64,000 bases of DNA from Shuttleworthella satelles DSM 14600. GTDB taxonomy: Bacteria; Bacillota; Clostridia; Lachnospirales; Lachnospiraceae. A program made the translations under genes and the position numbers. Each line of letters begins with the position of its first letter. Positions within the stretch are counted from its first letter, which is position 1. Below, in pieces: positions 28,778 through 58,486 of this stretch. The stretch spans positions 1,104,825 to 1,168,824 of the forward strand of contig NZ_GG665866.1 in assembly GCF_000160115.1 (NCBI RefSeq), in the 5' to 3' direction. The notes beneath the pieces are model-generated. The model worked only from the letters and a program-made list of their open reading frames with translations, made no database searches and was not told the origin of the DNA.

Positions 28778-29821
28778 TCAGTCTTCCCTGGCCAGAGTCT
28801 GGTCTTTGTCTTCAGCCTCGGGCTCGGGCTCGGTCTCAGCCTTCGCTTCCGTCTCAGACACAGGCTCAGATTTAGACTCATCCTTAGCCTCAGTCTCAGC
28901 TTTCGCTTCTGTCTCAGACACAGACTTAGTCTCGGTCTTGACTCCAGTCTCAGCTTTAGCCTCAGTCTTAGTCTCGGTCTCCGCCTCATCCTTAGCCTCG
29001 GCTTCAGCCTTTGCCTTTGCCTCAGCTTCAGCTTTTGCCCTGGCCTTAGCCTCAAGAGCCGCCTTCATCTTCTCTGCCTTGGCCTTCTCGGCCTCAGTAA
29101 ATTCGACCGTGGCAGGCGTCATACCATGACATTGATCCTGCAGAGAACAACTCTTGCAGTCTCCGGTAAAGACACAGCCCTGGGCCGGAGGCAGGGGCTT
29201 GCCCTTGGCATCCGCCTTCTTGCGGACCACATTCATCACTGCGACCAGGATGGAGAGAATGAAGAAAGCGCCCGGGGCCAGGACAAAAATCGTAATCGGG
29301 GTATAGCCGATCTTTCCTGTATCCGCCAGAGGAAGAACCTGCATCTTAAAGAGCTGGCCTGCGCCCAGGAACTCACGGACAAGGCCGATCGCAGTGATCG
29401 AACAGGTAAAACCAAGTCCCATGCCAAGTCCGTCAAAGAAAGAAGGAATGACAGGATTCTTGGATGCATAGGACTCCGCGCGTCCCAGGATAATGCAGTT
29501 TACAACGATCAGGGGAATGTAAATGCCCAGCGCGTCATTAATCGCCGGCGCGTAGCCCTGCAGGAGCATCTGCACCACCGTTACCAGGGATGCGACAATG
29601 ACAATATAAGCGGGCATGCGCACGCGGTCAGGGATGATTTTTCTCAGTGCTGAGATGATCAGATTTGACAGGGCCAATACCGCTGTGGTAGAGAGTCCCA
29701 TTCCGATTCCGTTGACGGCGGATGTGGTGACCGCGAGTGTCGGGCACATTCCAAGCATCAGTACAAAGGTGGGATTCTCCTTGTAAATTCCATTAACTAA
29801 TCTCTCGATTGGCTTGTTCAT
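28778..29821 (-). CDS. rnfE: Rnf complex subunit E with Cys-cluster and long low-complexity C-terminal extension
   Basis: 347 residues, where typical RnfE has 190-230. The membrane core (1-200, six helices) carries the conserved C26 and C109. After the last helix there is a CX5CX2CX5C cluster (C216, C222, C225, C231), which could bind metal or an Fe-S centre. The final 110 residues are a Lys/Ala/Glu/Thr low-complexity tail with no hydrophobic parts. The tail region is a degenerate hexamer-like DNA repeat. Start TAATG overlaps the rnfG stop by 1 nt, with GGGAGG upstream. Confidence 0.92.
   Translation of the reverse strand: MNKPIERLVNGIYKENPTFVLMLGMCPTLAVTTSAVNGIGMGLSTTAVLALSNLIISALRKIIPDRVRMPAYIVIVASLVTVVQMLLQGYAPAINDALGIYIPLIVVNCIILGRAESYASKNPVIPSFFDGLGMGLGFTCSITAIGLVREFLGAGQLFKMQVLPLADTGKIGYTPITIFVLAPGAFFILSILVAVMNVVRKKADAKGKPLPPAQGCVFTGDCKSCSLQDQCHGMTPATVEFTEAEKAKAEKMKAALEAKARAKAEAEAKAKAEAEAKDEAETETKTEAKAETGVKTETKSVSETEAKAETEAKDESKSEPVSETEAKAETEPEPEAEDKDQTLARED
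28793..29070. repeat. Degenerate GTCTCA/GCCTCA hexamer-like repeat in the rnfE tail
   Basis: The DNA encoding the RnfE tail is built from many diverged copies of a 6-bp unit (GTCTCA, GCCTCA, GTCTCG, GCCTTC). It leaves long open frames on both strands, which explains an unconvincing Ser/Ala-rich plus-strand frame over the same stretch. Confidence 0.75.
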
Positions 29822-42449: not shown

Positions 42450-43859
42450 TTACACAGGATAGGCCCCGTTCTCGCTGTCTGCCAGCTTGGCGTCCATCTT
42501 GGTCTGCTGAGCCTGACGGTACTTGAAGTACTCGACAGCAACCTGAGGGAAGAGGGCATAGGACAAGGTATCCTCATCCTGCTGTTTGTAAGGAGCAACT
42601 GCCTTTTCCATTTCCGGGAGCTGGGGTTCTATCAGATCCGCCGCCCGACAGCTGATCGCCTCAGACTTACGATCGCCTAGAGCTTTCTCGACAACCTCAG
42701 GATTAAAGGGTTTCTCGGTCTTTCCGTATTTACCCAGGAGCAAATCCTTGGTCTGATCCGTCACGACCTTATAGCGCTCTCCCATGAGGACATTGAAGAC
42801 GGCCTGTGTCCCCACGATCTGTGAAGAGGGGGTAACCAGAGGGGGCTCACCCAGATCCTTGCGGACGCGGGGTACTTCCTCGAGGACCTCCTGCAGCTTG
42901 TCAGACTTTCCCTGCTCCTTGAGCTGTCCGATCAGGTTGGAGAGCATTCCTCCGGGAACCTGATACATGAGGGTCTTGATATTAACTCCCAGAACCTTGG
43001 GATCCAGGCGGCCATTATCGATGTACTTCTGGCGAATGGGAGCAAAGTACTCGGCGATCTCTGCCAGCTTGTCCAGATCCAAGCCTGTATCATAGGGAGT
43101 ATCCTTGAAAGCCTCAACCATGACCTCAGTCGCCGGCTGTGAAGTCCCCAGGGCAAAGGGGGAAATGGCAGTATCGATGATATCAGCGCCTGCCTCAACC
43201 GCCTTCATCAGGGTCATGGAGGCTACGCCGGAGGTGTAGTGAGTATGAATCTCTATCGGCAGATCCGTCGCGGATTTTAAGGCGCTGACAAGCTCGGTCG
43301 CAGCCTTGGGAATCAGCAGCCCGGACATGTCCTTAATGCAGATGGAATTGGCTCCCATCTCTTCAATGCCCTTGGCCTTCTTCATCCAGTAATCTAAGGT
43401 ATAGGCGTCACCCAGGGTATAGGACAGGGCTACCTGGGCGTGTCCCCCCTCCTTAACCGTCGCCTTGACCGCCGTCTCTAAATTGCGCAGGTCATTCAGG
43501 CAGTCAAAGATACGCACCACATCAATTCCATTGGCCACAGACTTCTGTACGAAGTACTCCACAACGTCATCTGCATAGGGCTTATAACCTAAGATATTCT
43601 GTCCGCGAAAGAGCATCTGCAGAGGCGTGTTCTTGAAGCCAGCTTTGAGCTTGCGCAGACGGTCCCAGGGGTCTTCCTTCAAAAAACGCAGGCAGGCATC
43701 GAAAGTAGCTCCGCCCCAGCACTCCACTGCATTATAGCCGATCTTGTCCATGGCCGGAACAATGGGAAGCATCTCCTCCGTCGTCATGCGGGTTGCAATC
43801 AGAGACTGGTGGGCATCACGCAGAACCGTCTCTGTAATCTTTAATTTCTTATCAGCCAT
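42450..43859 (-). CDS. oadA: Oxaloacetate decarboxylase alpha / 5S-type carboxyltransferase subunit
   Basis: 469 residues, pyruvate-carboxyltransferase TIM barrel with ETVLRDAHQSLIATRM (9-24), the metal ligand segment IEIHTHYTSG (about 202-211) and the PYC_OADA conserved domain (PGGMLSNL). It lacks the C-terminal biotin domain of classical OadA; biotin is carried by the separate protein at 45543-45902. It moves carboxyl from oxaloacetate to biotin, or the reverse onto pyruvate. The ATG follows a 507-bp repeat region that separates it from oadB; GAGAGGAG lies 6 nt upstream. Confidence 0.92.
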   Translation of the reverse strand: MADKKLKITETVLRDAHQSLIATRMTTEEMLPIVPAMDKIGYNAVECWGGATFDACLRFLKEDPWDRLRKLKAGFKNTPLQMLFRGQNILGYKPYADDVVEYFVQKSVANGIDVVRIFDCLNDLRNLETAVKATVKEGGHAQVALSYTLGDAYTLDYWMKKAKGIEEMGANSICIKDMSGLLIPKAATELVSALKSATDLPIEIHTHYTSGVASMTLMKAVEAGADIIDTAISPFALGTSQPATEVMVEAFKDTPYDTGLDLDKLAEIAEYFAPIRQKYIDNGRLDPKVLGVNIKTLMYQVPGGMLSNLIGQLKEQGKSDKLQEVLEEVPRVRKDLGEPPLVTPSSQIVGTQAVFNVLMGERYKVVTDQTKDLLLGKYGKTEKPFNPEVVEKALGDRKSEAISCRAADLIEPQLPEMEKAVAPYKQQDEDTLSYALFPQVAVEYFKYRQAQQTKMDAKLADSENGAYPV

Positions 43860-43896
43860 GTATCTCTCCTCTCAACAAGTGATACAAGTGTTTCCT

Positions 43897-44286
43897 CCCT
43901 GCATTCGCATTCCCGCTCTGCTCCGCATCGCTTCATGCTCATGCAGGGGATTTTCCTGTCGTCTTGATGATCACCGGATTGCTCCGCACTTCGCGCTCCC
44001 GCAATCCTCCCCTGCATTCGCATTCCCGCTCTGCTTCGCATCGCTTCATGCTCATGCAGGGGATTTTCCTGTCGTCTTGATGATCACCGGATTGCTCCGC
44101 GCTTCGCGCTCCCGCAATCCTCCCTGCATTCGCATTCCCGCTCTGCTTCGCATCGCTTCATGCTCATGCAGGGGATTTTCCTGTCGTCTTGATGATCACC
44201 GGATTGCTCCGCGCTTCGCGCTCCCGCAATCCTCCCTGCATTCGCATTCCCGCTCTGCTTCGCATCGCTTCATGCTCATGCAGGGG
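43897..44286. repeat. Tandem array of about 112-bp hairpin-rich repeats between oadB and oadA
   Basis: Units start at 43901, 44014, 44126 and 44238 (periods 113, 112, 112; the last is a 49-bp partial). The two middle copies look identical; the first differs by two substitutions and one insertion. In the operon's direction each unit has hairpin 1 (GGATTGC...GCAATCC with GCGC-GAA-GCGC inside), a spacer GGTGATCATCAAGACGACAG, and hairpin 2 (CCCTGCAT...ATGCAGGG enclosing GCAT-GAAGCG-ATGC). No gene is credible here; the plus-strand open frame through it is a by-product of the repeat. Confidence 0.92.
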
Positions 44287-44299
44287 CGCCTCTCAAAGT

Positions 44300-44346
44300 T
44301 GGTGTATCGCGCTTTGGTGAGCGAGCTCCCCACGCGCAATACACCA
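44300..44346. repeat. Palindromic element next to the oadB stop
   Basis: TGGTGTAT (44300-44307) pairs with ATACACCA (44339-44346), with GCGC/GCGC just inside and GAGCGAGC in the loop. It lies between the 112-bp array and oadB. The GC-rich, GCGAGC-type core resembles the other palindromes around oadA. Confidence 0.65.
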
Positions 44347-44366
44347 GCTTTGCTCGGCTGTGATCA

Positions 44367-45515
44367 TCATATCCCAAATATTGCCATGAAGACGCCGGCC
44401 GCGACAGCCGTGCCGATAACGCCGGCGACATTGGGTCCCATTGCATGCATCAAAAGGAAGTTGGTCGGATCCTCTTCTGCACCCACCTTCTGGGAGACAC
44501 GGGCGGCCATCGGCACAGCGGATACTCCGGCGGACCCGATCAGAGGATTGATCTTGCCGTGTGTGATATGTGATAAGATTTTTCCCAGGATCACACCTCC
44601 GAAAGTACCGAAAGCGAAGGCAATCAGACCCAGAACAACGATTTTGATCGTCGTCACATTGAGGAAGGCCTCCGCGGAAGTAGAAGCTCCTACGGAAGTT
44701 CCCAGCAGGATAACGACAATGTACATCATGGCATTGGACGCGGTCTCTGTCAGCTGACGAACCACACCGGACTCACGGAAAAGATTGCCCAGCATCAGCA
44801 TCCCGACCAGGGGCGCCGTCGTGGGAAGGACAAGGCAGACAATGATCGTCACAATGATAGGAAAAAGAATCTTCTCCAGCTTGGACACCGGACGAAGCTG
44901 CGCCATATGTATGGACCGCTCCTCCTTGGTCGTGAACAGCCTCATGATCGGAGGCTGAATGATGGGCACCAGGGACATATAAGAATACGCCGCCACGGCG
45001 ATCGGCCCCATCAGAGCCGACTGTCCCAGCTTGCCCGCCAGGAAAATCGATGTAGGACCGTCCGCTCCTCCGATAATGGAAATGGCCGCTGCGGCCTTGT
45101 CGGAAAATCCCATAAAGATGGCCAGAAGATAGGCCAGATAGATCCCCAGCTGAGCAGCCGCCCCCATCAAAAATGAAATAGGGTTGGCGATCAGAGGACC
45201 GAAGTCAGTCATTGCCCCGACGCCCATAAAGATGAGAGACGGTAAGATGGACCACTCGTCCAGCTGGTAGAAATAGTAGAGCAAACCTCCTACGCCGTTG
45301 CTGGTATCCTCCGGACTTGCGATAATATCGGGATAGATATTGACCAAGAGCATGCCGAACGCAATCGGCACCAGCAAGAGGGGCTCAAAGCCCTTCTTGA
45401 TCGCAAGAAAGAGGAAGACGCAGGCCACGCCGATCATGACATAATTTCCGGGAGTGAGACTCGCGAAAGCTGTCTGACCGAGGAGGTTTGTTATCGTCTC
45501 CAAAACATAACTCAT
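44367..45515 (-). CDS. oadB: Na+-pumping decarboxylase beta subunit
   Basis: 382-residue polytopic membrane protein of the OadB/MmdB/GcdB family, which decarboxylates carboxybiotin and pumps Na+ outwards. The signature GGADGPTSIFLAGKL (about 149-163), the SMG-type segment FMGVGAMTDFGPLIANP and the C-terminal GKINPLIGSAGVSAVPMAARVSQ with the Asn/Asp/Ser residues implicated in Na+ binding are intact. GGAGG lies 9-10 nt before the ATG. The preceding gene encodes the biotin carrier. Confidence 0.95.
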   Translation of the reverse strand: MSYVLETITNLLGQTAFASLTPGNYVMIGVACVFLFLAIKKGFEPLLLVPIAFGMLLVNIYPDIIASPEDTSNGVGGLLYYFYQLDEWSILPSLIFMGVGAMTDFGPLIANPISFLMGAAAQLGIYLAYLLAIFMGFSDKAAAAISIIGGADGPTSIFLAGKLGQSALMGPIAVAAYSYMSLVPIIQPPIMRLFTTKEERSIHMAQLRPVSKLEKILFPIIVTIIVCLVLPTTAPLVGMLMLGNLFRESGVVRQLTETASNAMMYIVVILLGTSVGASTSAEAFLNVTTIKIVVLGLIAFAFGTFGGVILGKILSHITHGKINPLIGSAGVSAVPMAARVSQKVGAEEDPTNFLLMHAMGPNVAGVIGTAVAAGVFMAIFGI

Positions 45516-46645: not shown

Positions 46646-48058
46646 TTACTTGGTCCCGTGCTTCTTGAACGCGAAATCCTCTCTCTTTCCAAGGAGCATT
46701 TCAAAACCGGCAATCAGGTATTTTCTCAAATCCTCGGGAGCGACAATCCGGTCGACAAAGCCTCGGCCTGCCGCCGTGATGACGCCTGACTGCTTCTCTG
46801 CAAATGCCCTGGCCTGCGCCGCCTGCTCTGCCTGATCGGCAGAAGCATACATGACCTGGGCGGCCAGACTGGCGTCCATAATCTCAATCTGCGCATCGGG
46901 CAGAGCGAAGGTTAAATCAGCGCCGACAGACTTGGCGTTCATAGCTAAAAATGCCGTTCCGACAGCCTTCTTAGTAATTACATTGATCTTGGGAACCGAG
47001 GCGGAGGCCAGAGCGTAAATCAGACGGGCCGCAGCCTGTCCCAGGGCCTTCTCCGCATAGAGACTCGCCTCATAAGAAGCCACGTTGGTCAAACTGAGCA
47101 GAGGAATATCAAACGCGTCGCAGAAGCGGACAAAATCAGCCGCCTTATAAGCCCCATTGACTGTCAGCTGATTGCCGTCATCCCGGTCATCGCACTTCTG
47201 CGTGTTGCCGAAGATGCCGACCGTAATTCCGCCGAGCCGGATAAAGCCTGTGGTCATCTCTTTGGCATATCCTGCCCTGGTCTCAAAAAACACATGCTGG
47301 TCGGCGAGCTCCGCTGCGGCGGCCCGGGCATCGTCTCTCTTGACATCCAGCCCTTCGGCGGCGCGATTCAAATCATCAGAGGCCTCAGCGACCTCTCCCT
47401 CCTGCAGATTGGAGCCGGGAACAAGAGAGATCATAGAGCGGATCTGAGACAGAATTTCTTCTTCGCTTCCAATTCCATCCGCGTTACCTGCCTCAAACTG
47501 AAAGGCAGCGGAGGCAGTATCTAAGGTCTCCTCACTGTTGCCGGGAATTGCGTTGGCGGAGTTGATGAAGAGTCTGGCGCCTTCCTCGATAAAGGTGAAA
47601 TCTGATATCGATGTCAGAATTCCCAGACCTCCGCCGCAATTACCAAAGACCGCTGTCAGCTGAGGAATCACACCGGAAGCCGCAACTGCGCTGGCATAAA
47701 TCCGTCCGACCGCGTCCAGGGCGTCTATAGATTCCTGCAGACGAATCCCGGTCGAATCGAGAAGCCCGATCACTGGCGCTCCGACCTTGACTGCCATTTC
47801 GTAGAGCTGGCAGATCTTTCTGGCATGCATCTCGCCGACGGATCCGCCCATCACCCCGGCATCCTGGCTGTAGACAAAGACCAGATTCCCGTCGACGGTT
47901 CCGTGACCGATCACAACACCGTCAGACGGAGCCTTCTGCTCCTGAGAATTAAAATCCGTACTTCTTGAAGTCACAAGCGCTCCGAGTTCCACGAAGCTGT
48001 GCTCATCGAGAAGAGATTCGATTCTTCGGAACGCAGGGCTTGTTGCTACATTACTCAT
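46646..48058 (-). CDS. mmdA: Acyl-CoA carboxyltransferase subunit (MmdA / 12S type)
   Basis: 470 residues from the ATG at 48058 with GGAGG 7 nt upstream. Crotonase-fold carboxyltransferase of the propionyl/methylmalonyl-CoA family: GVVIGHGTVDGNLVFVYSQDAGVMGGSVGEMHARK (about 47-81), GIRLQESIDALDAVGRIY and the C-terminal MNAKSVGADLTFALPDAQIEIMDAS. The family transfers carboxyl from an acyl-CoA (usually methylmalonyl-CoA) to biotin. It is somewhat shorter than typical MmdA (about 510), and the substrate cannot be fixed by eye. First gene of the operon. Confidence 0.88.
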   Translation of the reverse strand: MSNVATSPAFRRIESLLDEHSFVELGALVTSRSTDFNSQEQKAPSDGVVIGHGTVDGNLVFVYSQDAGVMGGSVGEMHARKICQLYEMAVKVGAPVIGLLDSTGIRLQESIDALDAVGRIYASAVAASGVIPQLTAVFGNCGGGLGILTSISDFTFIEEGARLFINSANAIPGNSEETLDTASAAFQFEAGNADGIGSEEEILSQIRSMISLVPGSNLQEGEVAEASDDLNRAAEGLDVKRDDARAAAAELADQHVFFETRAGYAKEMTTGFIRLGGITVGIFGNTQKCDDRDDGNQLTVNGAYKAADFVRFCDAFDIPLLSLTNVASYEASLYAEKALGQAAARLIYALASASVPKINVITKKAVGTAFLAMNAKSVGADLTFALPDAQIEIMDASLAAQVMYASADQAEQAAQARAFAEKQSGVITAAGRGFVDRIVAPEDLRKYLIAGFEMLLGKREDFAFKKHGTK

Positions 48059-48171
48059 GCTCATTCCTCCATATATTATGATCTCTCTCACGCATTTTTA
48101 TATGCTCTTTGCAGAAAAAACGCGTTCTACTGGCCCTGTCCCCCGAAAAAGGTCCAAAAGCCGACTAAATA

Positions 48172-55609: not shown

Positions 55610-58486
55610 CTAACGGGGAACCTCCACCATCTTGTAAGCCTCAATCTCATCGTCAACCTGAATGTCCGCAAATCCGTCAAAGACCAGACCGCACTCATAA
55701 CCGGCCTTGACCTCTTTGACATCATCCTTGAAGCGCTTGAGGGACCCGAGATTCCCCTCCCAGATCATATCCTTGCCGCGATGAATCCGAACCTTGCAGC
55801 CGCGCTCCACCTGACCGTCCAAAACATAGGAACCGGCGATATTTCCGACGCCGGAGGCCTTGAAGATCTGGCGAACCTGGGCATGGCCGATCACCTGCTC
55901 CTCATAGATGGGCTCAAGCATTCCCTTCATAGCGCCCTCGACATCTTCAATGGCATTGTAGATAACGGAATAGATCTGAATGTCAACCCCCTCGTCCTCT
56001 GCCATATTCTTGGCCACGGTATCCGGGCGCACATTAAAGCCGATGATGATCGCGTTCGAGGCAGACGCCAGCACGACATCAGATTCAGAGATAGCTCCGA
56101 CGCCTCCATGAATCACCTTGACGATCACTTCATCATTTGACAGCTTCTCCAGGGCGCTGGTGACAGCCTCGACAGAGCCCTGTACGTCCGCCTTGACGAT
56201 CAGATCCAGTTCCTTCATGCTGCCAGCCTTAATCTGGTCAAAGACATTGCCCAGCTTGGTTCTGGCTCTCGTCTCATCCAAAAGCTTGGACTTGGACTCC
56301 TCGACAAAGGTCTGGGCATAAGAGCGGGCCTCCTTGTCGGAGTCGAGCACGTTGAAGATCTCCCCGGCATTGGGAACCTCAGAAAGTCCCAAAATCTCAA
56401 CGGGAACAGATGGACCTGCCTGCTTCACCCTCTTGTGATGGTCGTCAGACATGGCCCGGATCCTTCCGAAGCTTGCGCCGGCGGCCATGTAGTCGCCGAC
56501 ATGCAGGGTTCCCTTCTGTACCAGGGCGGTCGCGACAACGCCGCGTCCTCTGTCCAGCTTCGCCTCAATGATGACGCCGCGGGCATTGCGGTTGGGATTG
56601 GCCTTGAGCTCCAGAACATCTGCCGTCAAAAGAATCATATCGAGAAGGGTATCGATTCCCTCTCCGGTATGGGCGGATACAGGAACCATGACCGTTGATC
56701 CGCCCCAGTCCTCCGGAATCAGTTCATATTCCGAGAGCTCCTGCTTGACGCGGTCTACATTGGCCCCGACCTTATCGATCTTGTTAATGGCGACAATAAT
56801 CTCCACGCCGGCAGCCTTGGCATGATTGATCGCCTCAACGGTCTGCGGCATGACGCCGTCGTCAGCGGCAACCACTAAGACAGCAATATCCGTAGAATTG
56901 GCCCCACGCATCCGCATCGCGGTAAAGGCCTCGTGTCCGGGCGTATCCAGGAAAGTGATTTTCCGATCCTTGGCCTTGACCGTATAGGCTCCGATGGCCT
57001 GCGTGATTCCTCCGGCCTCCTTGCCGCTCACATTGGATTGGCGTATTTTGTCCAGAAGAGAGGTCTTACCGTGATCGACATGACCCATGACAACGACAAC
57101 CGGCGGTCTGGGTACCAGGCTCTCGGGATCATCATCCTCATCGGTCAGGAGCTCCTCGATCACGTCTTCTTTTTCCTCAGGCTCGCAGATACAGTTGAAT
57201 TCCTCAGCGATCTTCTCCGCCTGTTCGTAGTCCAGCTCTGTATTGATAGTGGCCATCGTCCCCTTCATAAAGAGGTTCTTGATCACCTCGGATGGGGTTA
57301 CCATCATCTTCTCAGCCAGAGACTGAATGGTCAGATGTTCGGGAAGCTGAATCGTGAGCAGTTCCTCCATATTTCTCTCCGGTCCCTTGTTCTTATTTCG
57401 GTTGCGCTTGGTTGTGGTCTTCTCGAGAGAAACCATATTCTCGGCATGACGGCTCCTGTCGTCCCTTCTCTTGCGGTTCCCGTAGGCAGACCCTGATCCG
57501 TAATTCTTGCGGCCCCCGTTGCCGTTAGCGACAACCGGGCTCTGAACCATTGCGGCTGCGGAACCGCGGCCGCCCTGACCGGCATTTCCCCTGCGGGCTC
57601 CACTGTCATTGCCGCCTCGTCCGCGATTGGAGCCTCGATTATCTCCCCCTCTGCCGCGGTTATTTCCATAGCCGGACTTGGAGAGGTCAATATGGCCGAG
57701 GATCTTGATTCCGGCTCCCTTGGAGGCTGCCTTCGCGGGCTCCCTCCTGGCAGGGCGCTCGCCCGCGGCAGTCTGTTCTCTCTTTCTGGTCTCTTCCCCT
57801 TTGGCCTTCCGGTCAGCCCCCGGAGCCTGCTCTGTCCTGGACGTCTGCTCTCTGGGTGCCTGCTCTCTGGGTGCCTGCTCTCTGGGCGTCTGCTCCCTGG
57901 GTGTCTGCTCACGAAGAGTCGCGTCCTCCTGCCCGCTGATCGCTGTGGGAGTCTGCTCTTTTATCTCCTCCTGAGGCTCATTGGAGACAAGCGTTCTCTG
58001 AGAGACCAGTCCCTTGGGCCGGATGATTCCCCTTGGCGCGGTCTGACGGCGATCGTCCCGATTCCTGCGGCGATCCCCTTCTCTTCTCCTTGCCCTTCCA
58101 TCGCCGCCGCCATTGCTCATGTTCTGGTGATTGACGATAAACCTGACATGTTTTTTCTTTGGCTTCTCCTGTCCGGCAGCAGTCCCATCCGCCGTCTTCT
58201 CTCTGGCCTTTTCGCCGTCGGCGGTCTCCGGCTTCTTCTCCCGGACCGGCCTATGCGCAGCAGCTTCCTGACGCACCTTCTCTGCCTCCATGTCCTTTTT
58301 GACAGAAGCTTCCTTCTTTTTCTCCGACTTTTTCATAAAATGCCCCCGGATCCCGTCCGCCGTCTCCTGGTCGAGCCCGCTGGAGACGGTCTTTGCATCC
58401 GCGCCCATCTTCTGCGCAAGGACAAGGACATCCTTGGATTCCGCTCCGATCTCTTTTGCTAATTCATATATTCTGGTTTTTGCCAT
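55610..58486 (-). CDS. infB: Translation initiation factor IF-2
   Basis: 958 residues from the ATG at 58486 with GGGAGG 6 nt upstream; the frame to 58525 lies over the upstream intergenic region. The N-terminal IF2_N fold ([25 protein letters not shown]) is followed by a disordered Arg/Gly/Gln-rich linker of about 320 residues, a second IF2_N, then the G domain (GHVDHGKTS about 467-475, DTPGHE, NKID) and domains II-IV. The linker contains pentapeptide repeats REQ[TA]P and RGG-rich stretches. It places fMet-tRNA on the 30S subunit. Confidence 0.96.
57841..57915. repeat. 15-bp minisatellite in infB coding the REQ[TA]P repeats
   Basis: Five in-frame units of 15 bp (57841, 57856, 57871, 57886, 57901), for example GTGCCTGCTCTCTGG on the plus strand. 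They encode Arg-Glu-Gln-Thr/Ala-Pro repeats in the IF-2 linker. Confidence 0.85.

Follow-up and report, generated by a model that had tools for sequence, protein, structure and literature searches.

Introduction

Clostridiales-1 (RF01699), which Rfam types as 'Gene; sRNA', appears in Weinberg et al. (2010; PMC2864571) only as a probable RNA that is not cis-regulatory, occurring in Clostridiales and in the human gut and with no assigned function; the main text of that paper does not mention mobility. In a literature search that covered mainly openly available papers, we found Clostridiales-1 listed, with no interpretation as a MITE, and found no paper on MITEs in Lachnospiraceae.

Described systems that resemble the one reported here include small repeated elements of other bacteria. 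BOX of Streptococcus pneumoniae (boxA-boxB(n)-boxC) is likewise small and interspersed, with inverted ends, a stable RNA fold and an internal module of variable tandem copy number, and is transcribed with neighbouring operons (PMC3049150); a cis influence on messages has been discussed for BOX, ERIC, Correia and BIME elements (PMC3049150). QMITE1 and QMITE2 of Coxiella burnetii are MITE families that yield small RNAs, QMITE2 being 150-190 bp with direct repeats of 7-11 nt (PMC5896051), and the BrickBuilt MITE of Porphyromonas gingivalis contains a minisatellite and is always intergenic (PMC4596501). Here we describe an operon of Shuttleworthella satelles DSM 14600 (Lachnospiraceae) in which part of a Clostridiales-1 element has been multiplied, and we compare it with relatives across the order.

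The array between oadB and oadA

The whole stretch of DNA analysed (the window) comprises 64 000 nucleotides of contig NZ_GG665866.1. On its minus strand, a 507-nt gap separates oadB, the sodium-translocating decarboxylase beta subunit (44367-45515; TIGR01109, 466 bits), from the downstream oadA, the oxaloacetate decarboxylase alpha or pyruvate carboxylase B-type subunit (42450-43859; NF008985, 744 bits). Between these co-directional genes TRF finds a tandem array at 43893-44286 (minus strand; period 112, 3.5 copies, 98% matches, score 765), whose exact units, read on the minus strand, are two identical copies of 112 bp, one of 113 bp and a terminal partial copy of 52 bp. Unit 3 has gained one G and carries a C-to-T change in hairpin C that leaves a G-U wobble, and unit 4 has a single loop change. 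A preliminary description of this DNA had placed three full copies and one partial copy, two of them apparently identical, between co-directional oadB and oadA, and the TRF result, the exact units and the gene family matches all bear this out; its suggestion of recent expansion fits the 98-100% identity of the units. Since the 112-bp period is not divisible by 3, we dropped a coding-repeat reading of the array. Folding the 507-nt gap, a check which that description had named, gave -240.5 kcal/mol as compared to -162.5 +/- 5.5 for shuffles (z -14). We found no intrinsic-terminator-like or promoter-like site within the oadB-oadA gap. Elsewhere in the window, TRF reports other short-period tandem repeats at 57845-57910 (15 bp x 4.4) and 28877-29054 (12-36 bp), and the carboxyltransferase of the operon (46646-48061) is mmdA-like at 349 bits, far under the curated mmdA cut-off of 999.

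The array is part of a larger feature. With cmscan, the segment at 44193-44366 (minus strand) matches RF01699 over the full model (positions 1-166) at 112 bits (E 1.2e-24), and a second match, which has no hairpin A, lies at 43968-44086 (minus strand, 79.4 bits); the RF01699 gathering score is 48 bits. The complete element resembles the Rfam family in its closing stem, its hairpins A, B and C and its conserved loop residues, with hairpin A diverged in the window copy. It begins directly 3' of the oadB stop with a 5' end and hairpin A (44286-44366) that are single and lie outside the repeated unit, and it supplies the first hairpin B (44234-44285) and hairpin C (44201-44232) of the array. The further copies, all on the minus strand, are hairpin B at 44122-44173, at 44009-44061 (with the extra G) and at 43897-43948 (the final partial unit), and hairpin C at 44089-44120 and at 43976-44007 (with the wobble). 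The order on the minus strand is thus oadB stop, hairpin A, (B-C-spacer) x3, B and the oadA ribosome-binding region, with hairpin B present four times and hairpin C three times in the array and complete element together. That the feature is a Clostridiales-1 element is practically certain, and the RF01699 matches show that the 112-bp unit is the B-C core of this known family plus a spacer. The 'repeat' of the preliminary description therefore stands as an array, but it is only part of the feature, as the complete element starts at the oadB stop.

Occurrence in the genome and in relatives

The preliminary description had also proposed searching the unit against its own genome, and it does occur elsewhere: three full copies of 168 bp lie in sense orientation at a fabG-fabF junction, directly after the stop codon (these gene names rest on a reading of the translated sequence, not on a family match). 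Between the oad and fab loci, hairpin B shows a two-sided change that keeps the pair (CCCTGCAT/ATGCAGGG against CCCTACAT/ATGTAGGG). These two are the only clear Clostridiales-1 loci in this genome, which thus gives no sign of current activity. The same genome has another hairpin-rich tandem array between co-directional ORFs (G000 C4:667049-667405; L018, about 1412-1890), with a unit of ~117 bp; it scores just 28-29 bits to RF01699 and so probably belongs to a different palindrome family.

Across our samples, Clostridiales-1 matches were present in 214 of 397 genomes of the window's family and in 57 of 295 genomes of the order, several other families included, while the four positives in a phylum sample of 348 all came from the window's own family. 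G270, a complete genome of 3.5 Mb, contains 93 matches, 66 of them above the cut-off, with about ten head-to-tail clusters; all 61 copies examined there were intergenic. Such tandem copies elsewhere in the family agree with the proposal that the window element was amplified in place. One G270 copy (L067), carrying a ATTGATAT duplication, lies directly upstream of dnaK, and a subgroup of G270 copies (L221-L229, L231) shares an extra hairpin module of ~50 nt within hairpin C.

The oadB-oadA junction itself bears on the idea of a regulatory RNA of the host, be it a leader, an attenuator or riboswitch-like, that serves the oad operon specifically and was duplicated for stronger control. The window has 534 nt between the oadB stop and a conserved motif of OadA, as compared to a median of 76 nt in 77 relatives, and its gap is the longest among the 78 loci compared. 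One relative (G051) has a full-length Clostridiales-1 at the same junction and three of 80 (L079, L111 and L122) have weaker relatives of it; together with the sense orientation ahead of oadA, the compensatory changes and the conserved unpaired GA motifs, this would suit an oad-specific RNA. Yet in most relatives the gap is short and lacks the element, the window gap holds no terminator-like site, and copies elsewhere adjoin unrelated genes such as fabF, dnaK and mutS2. We rejected enrichment at this junction, 3/80 being near chance: with dozens of copies per genome, three or four occurrences in about 80 relatives are about what chance would give, so we claim no special oad function. A dedicated oad regulator was rejected as quite improbable, since the element also lies beside unrelated genes and is absent from the junction in most relatives. 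In several other Lachnospiraceae (L091, L113, L117 and L130) this junction contains hairpin-rich or tandem repeats that are unrelated to the element.

Signatures of mobility

In two other Lachnospiraceae genomes and in dozens of further genera, Clostridiales-1 occurs as dispersed, intergenic copies with 17-bp terminal inverted repeats (TIRs) and 7-bp target duplications. Aligned flanks define an extended element that begins with GATRCCAGGGTCAAAAG, continues through hairpins A, B and C and a fourth hairpin, and ends with CTTTTGACCCCAACATC, the two ends being inverted repeats; the TIRs of relatives read GATRCCAGGGTCAAAAG and GATGTTGGGGTCAAAAG and are unrecognisable in the window copy. Exact 7-mers abut both ends in 12/29 and 12/30 copies where about 1 is expected; as direct repeats they were found in 26/61 copies of the enlarged G270 set (expected 1.7) and in 12/28 (expected 0.9), counts that none of 5000 shuffles reached, and in 11/39 (expected 0.8) among 40 further loci, other families included. 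The duplicated target is AT-rich, ~7 bp, with the consensus ATWWTAT. Internally deleted derivatives that keep the ends alone, some only 40-90 bp, carry perfect duplications in two genera (G270 and G231), and one G270 insertion is missing from two sister species, in which the flanking genes are contiguous. The element is short (about 200 bp), has no transposase gene and is multicopy and dispersed, and it has the TIRs, target duplications, deletion derivatives and empty site that typify a MITE. The sequence comparison shows, then, that Clostridiales-1 appears to be a small mobile DNA element, with a conserved RNA-like core, that spreads among the genomes of Lachnospirales.

Some copies from other families of the order terminate in markedly different sequences that are nonetheless mutually complementary, which makes conservation weaker at the ends than in the body; six of these (L284, L285, L286, L289, L292 and L294) have variant complementary ends around the B-C core and no visible target duplication. 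A search of viral contigs and of the surroundings of unpaired ends in two genomes yielded no autonomous element whose ends match. In G270 and G231, such unpaired ends belonged only to truncated or mini copies, and ordinary genes fill the 4-kb and 2-kb intervals between paired ends in G270. A phage origin was rejected, since none of 2.9 million viral contigs matched the 5' end pattern. Promoter targeting, in which the ends would fall just 3' of TATAAT-like sites, was likewise rejected, for although the target is TATAAT-like, -35 matches barely exceed expectation. So was an orientation bias: 41/61 G270 copies face the downstream gene, but divergent and convergent gaps are mixed among these, and at co-directional junctions the split of 22 sense to 13 antisense is not significant.

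The window copy is degenerate, with a diverged hairpin A, no right end of the CTTTTGACCCCAACATC type and no fourth hairpin; on its left side only, an ATATGAT that fits the family's 7-bp target consensus overlaps the oadB stop (44366-44372, minus strand), and there is no second ATATGAT. Its own mobility is therefore inferred from its relatives. The earlier suggestion of a mobile, non-autonomous palindromic element is accordingly supported for the family, while the window copy has no recognisable outer ends. A mobile origin of the window element is highly probable on the strength of these relatives, and for Clostridiales-1 identity and mobile origin jointly we put the probability at about 0.8.

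Structure of the core and alternative readings

Among 29 diverse copies, two-sided changes occur in 32 of 43 predicted pairs, 95.8% of cells pair, and covariation is 0.450 as compared to 0.184 when shuffled and 0.036-0.108 when slid. Compensatory changes, whose absence the preliminary description would have counted against itself, are thus present. Because complementary ends are expected of any inverted repeat, it is hairpins A, B and C that are informative, and these bear on whether the array is a selfish or neutral DNA palindrome with no RNA role, its pairing the product of cruciform or hairpin-mediated DNA events only. Hairpin A behaves as that reading would have it, its non-Watson-Crick cells showing no strand bias (G-U 49, A-C 47); the ends-only derivatives, which apparently still move, and the lack of significant orientation preference at co-directional junctions fit as well. 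Hairpins B and C do not: on the Rfam strand they have 26 G-U cells against 5 A-C, or 17:5 with close relatives collapsed (p 0.017), so that tolerance of G-U but not of A-C is confined to the two hairpins that the window array multiplies. Their internal-loop residues are also invariant across several families of the order. The G-U/A-C contrast suggests that the B-C core is under selection as RNA; it is moderate evidence, because it involves few events and part of the same data went into the structure prediction, hairpin A serving as a control under the same bias. An element of DNA alone is accordingly a rather unlikely explanation.

The substitution bias in hairpins B and C, together with the Rfam type, would also suit a true trans-acting small RNA gene that is multicopy by happenstance. 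Such a gene would not be expected to have TIRs, target duplications and an empty site; upstream promoter matches (at 10 of 12 positions) show a slight excess, 6/61 copies against 2.2 expected, and the window copy sits inside an operon with no promoter-like site of its own. We consider this reading improbable. The short, GC-rich, intergenic hairpins in tandem recall REP/BIME palindromes mobilised by a RAYT (Y1) transposase. HUH/Y1 transposition is not known to duplicate its target, whereas Clostridiales-1 insertions frequently have 7-bp target duplications, and a REP/BIME origin is scarcely credible.

Proposed origin and effect of the array

In the MITE reading that we favor, the element, non-autonomous and of MITE type, would have transposed to the oadB stop codon, mobilised in trans by an enzyme acting at the 17-bp inverted ends and duplicating ~7 bp of AT-rich target, after which its outer ends most probably decayed. 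The array starts and stops with hairpin B, from which we infer that expansion took place between B hairpins, putatively by slippage or unequal exchange. Given the co-directional setting with no promoter-like or terminator-like site, the array is probably co-transcribed with oadB and oadA, as a predicted spacer of ~500 nt in their message. As for BOX, ERIC, Correia and BIME elements, it would influence the oadB-oadA message in cis and not as a separate small RNA, perhaps through an exonuclease block, cleavage sites or translation uncoupling; this transcription and cis action are the least certain of these steps. A real effect on oadA, which the preliminary description had suggested, is plausible, though somewhat doubtful. 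More speculative, and on the whole unlikely, is the broader proposal that treats Clostridiales-1 as a mobile RNA gene or module: a MITE whose B-C core stays RNA-functional throughout the order Lachnospirales, whose ends are exchanged or lost, and whose core hosts multiply inside operons, so setting the ratio of neighbouring subunits.

Comparison with known systems

As compared to Clostridiales-1 as listed in PMC2864571, the copies described here add 17-bp inverted ends, 7-bp duplications, deletion derivatives, an empty site and B-C amplification. Relative to the literature searched, what is new is the set of transposon signatures, the contrast of hairpins B and C with A, and the amplification of B-C within an operon; we do not claim priority for these. 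An Rfam sRNA family found in about half of the sampled Lachnospiraceae, with dozens of copies in some, thus appears to be a transposable element, and many annotations of gut genomes would have to be reread in that light. A puzzle is that the MITE seems able to move without its body, yet its RNA structure is apparently kept under selection; the window array, which multiplies the B-C core alone inside an operon, would be a good place for measuring the effect of that core.

QMITE1 and QMITE2 belong to another organism; for Clostridiales-1, the RNA structure was the first thing to be catalogued, and it extends over an order. BrickBuilt has a 23-nt unit with no spacers, as compared to the 112-bp unit with two hairpins in the window. 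The closest analogue, as far as a likeness of architecture goes, is BOX, with its repeated internal module inside a MITE; host and sequence modules differ, and in Clostridiales-1 the amplified core is a hairpin pair that shows compensatory changes between genera and between families of the order.
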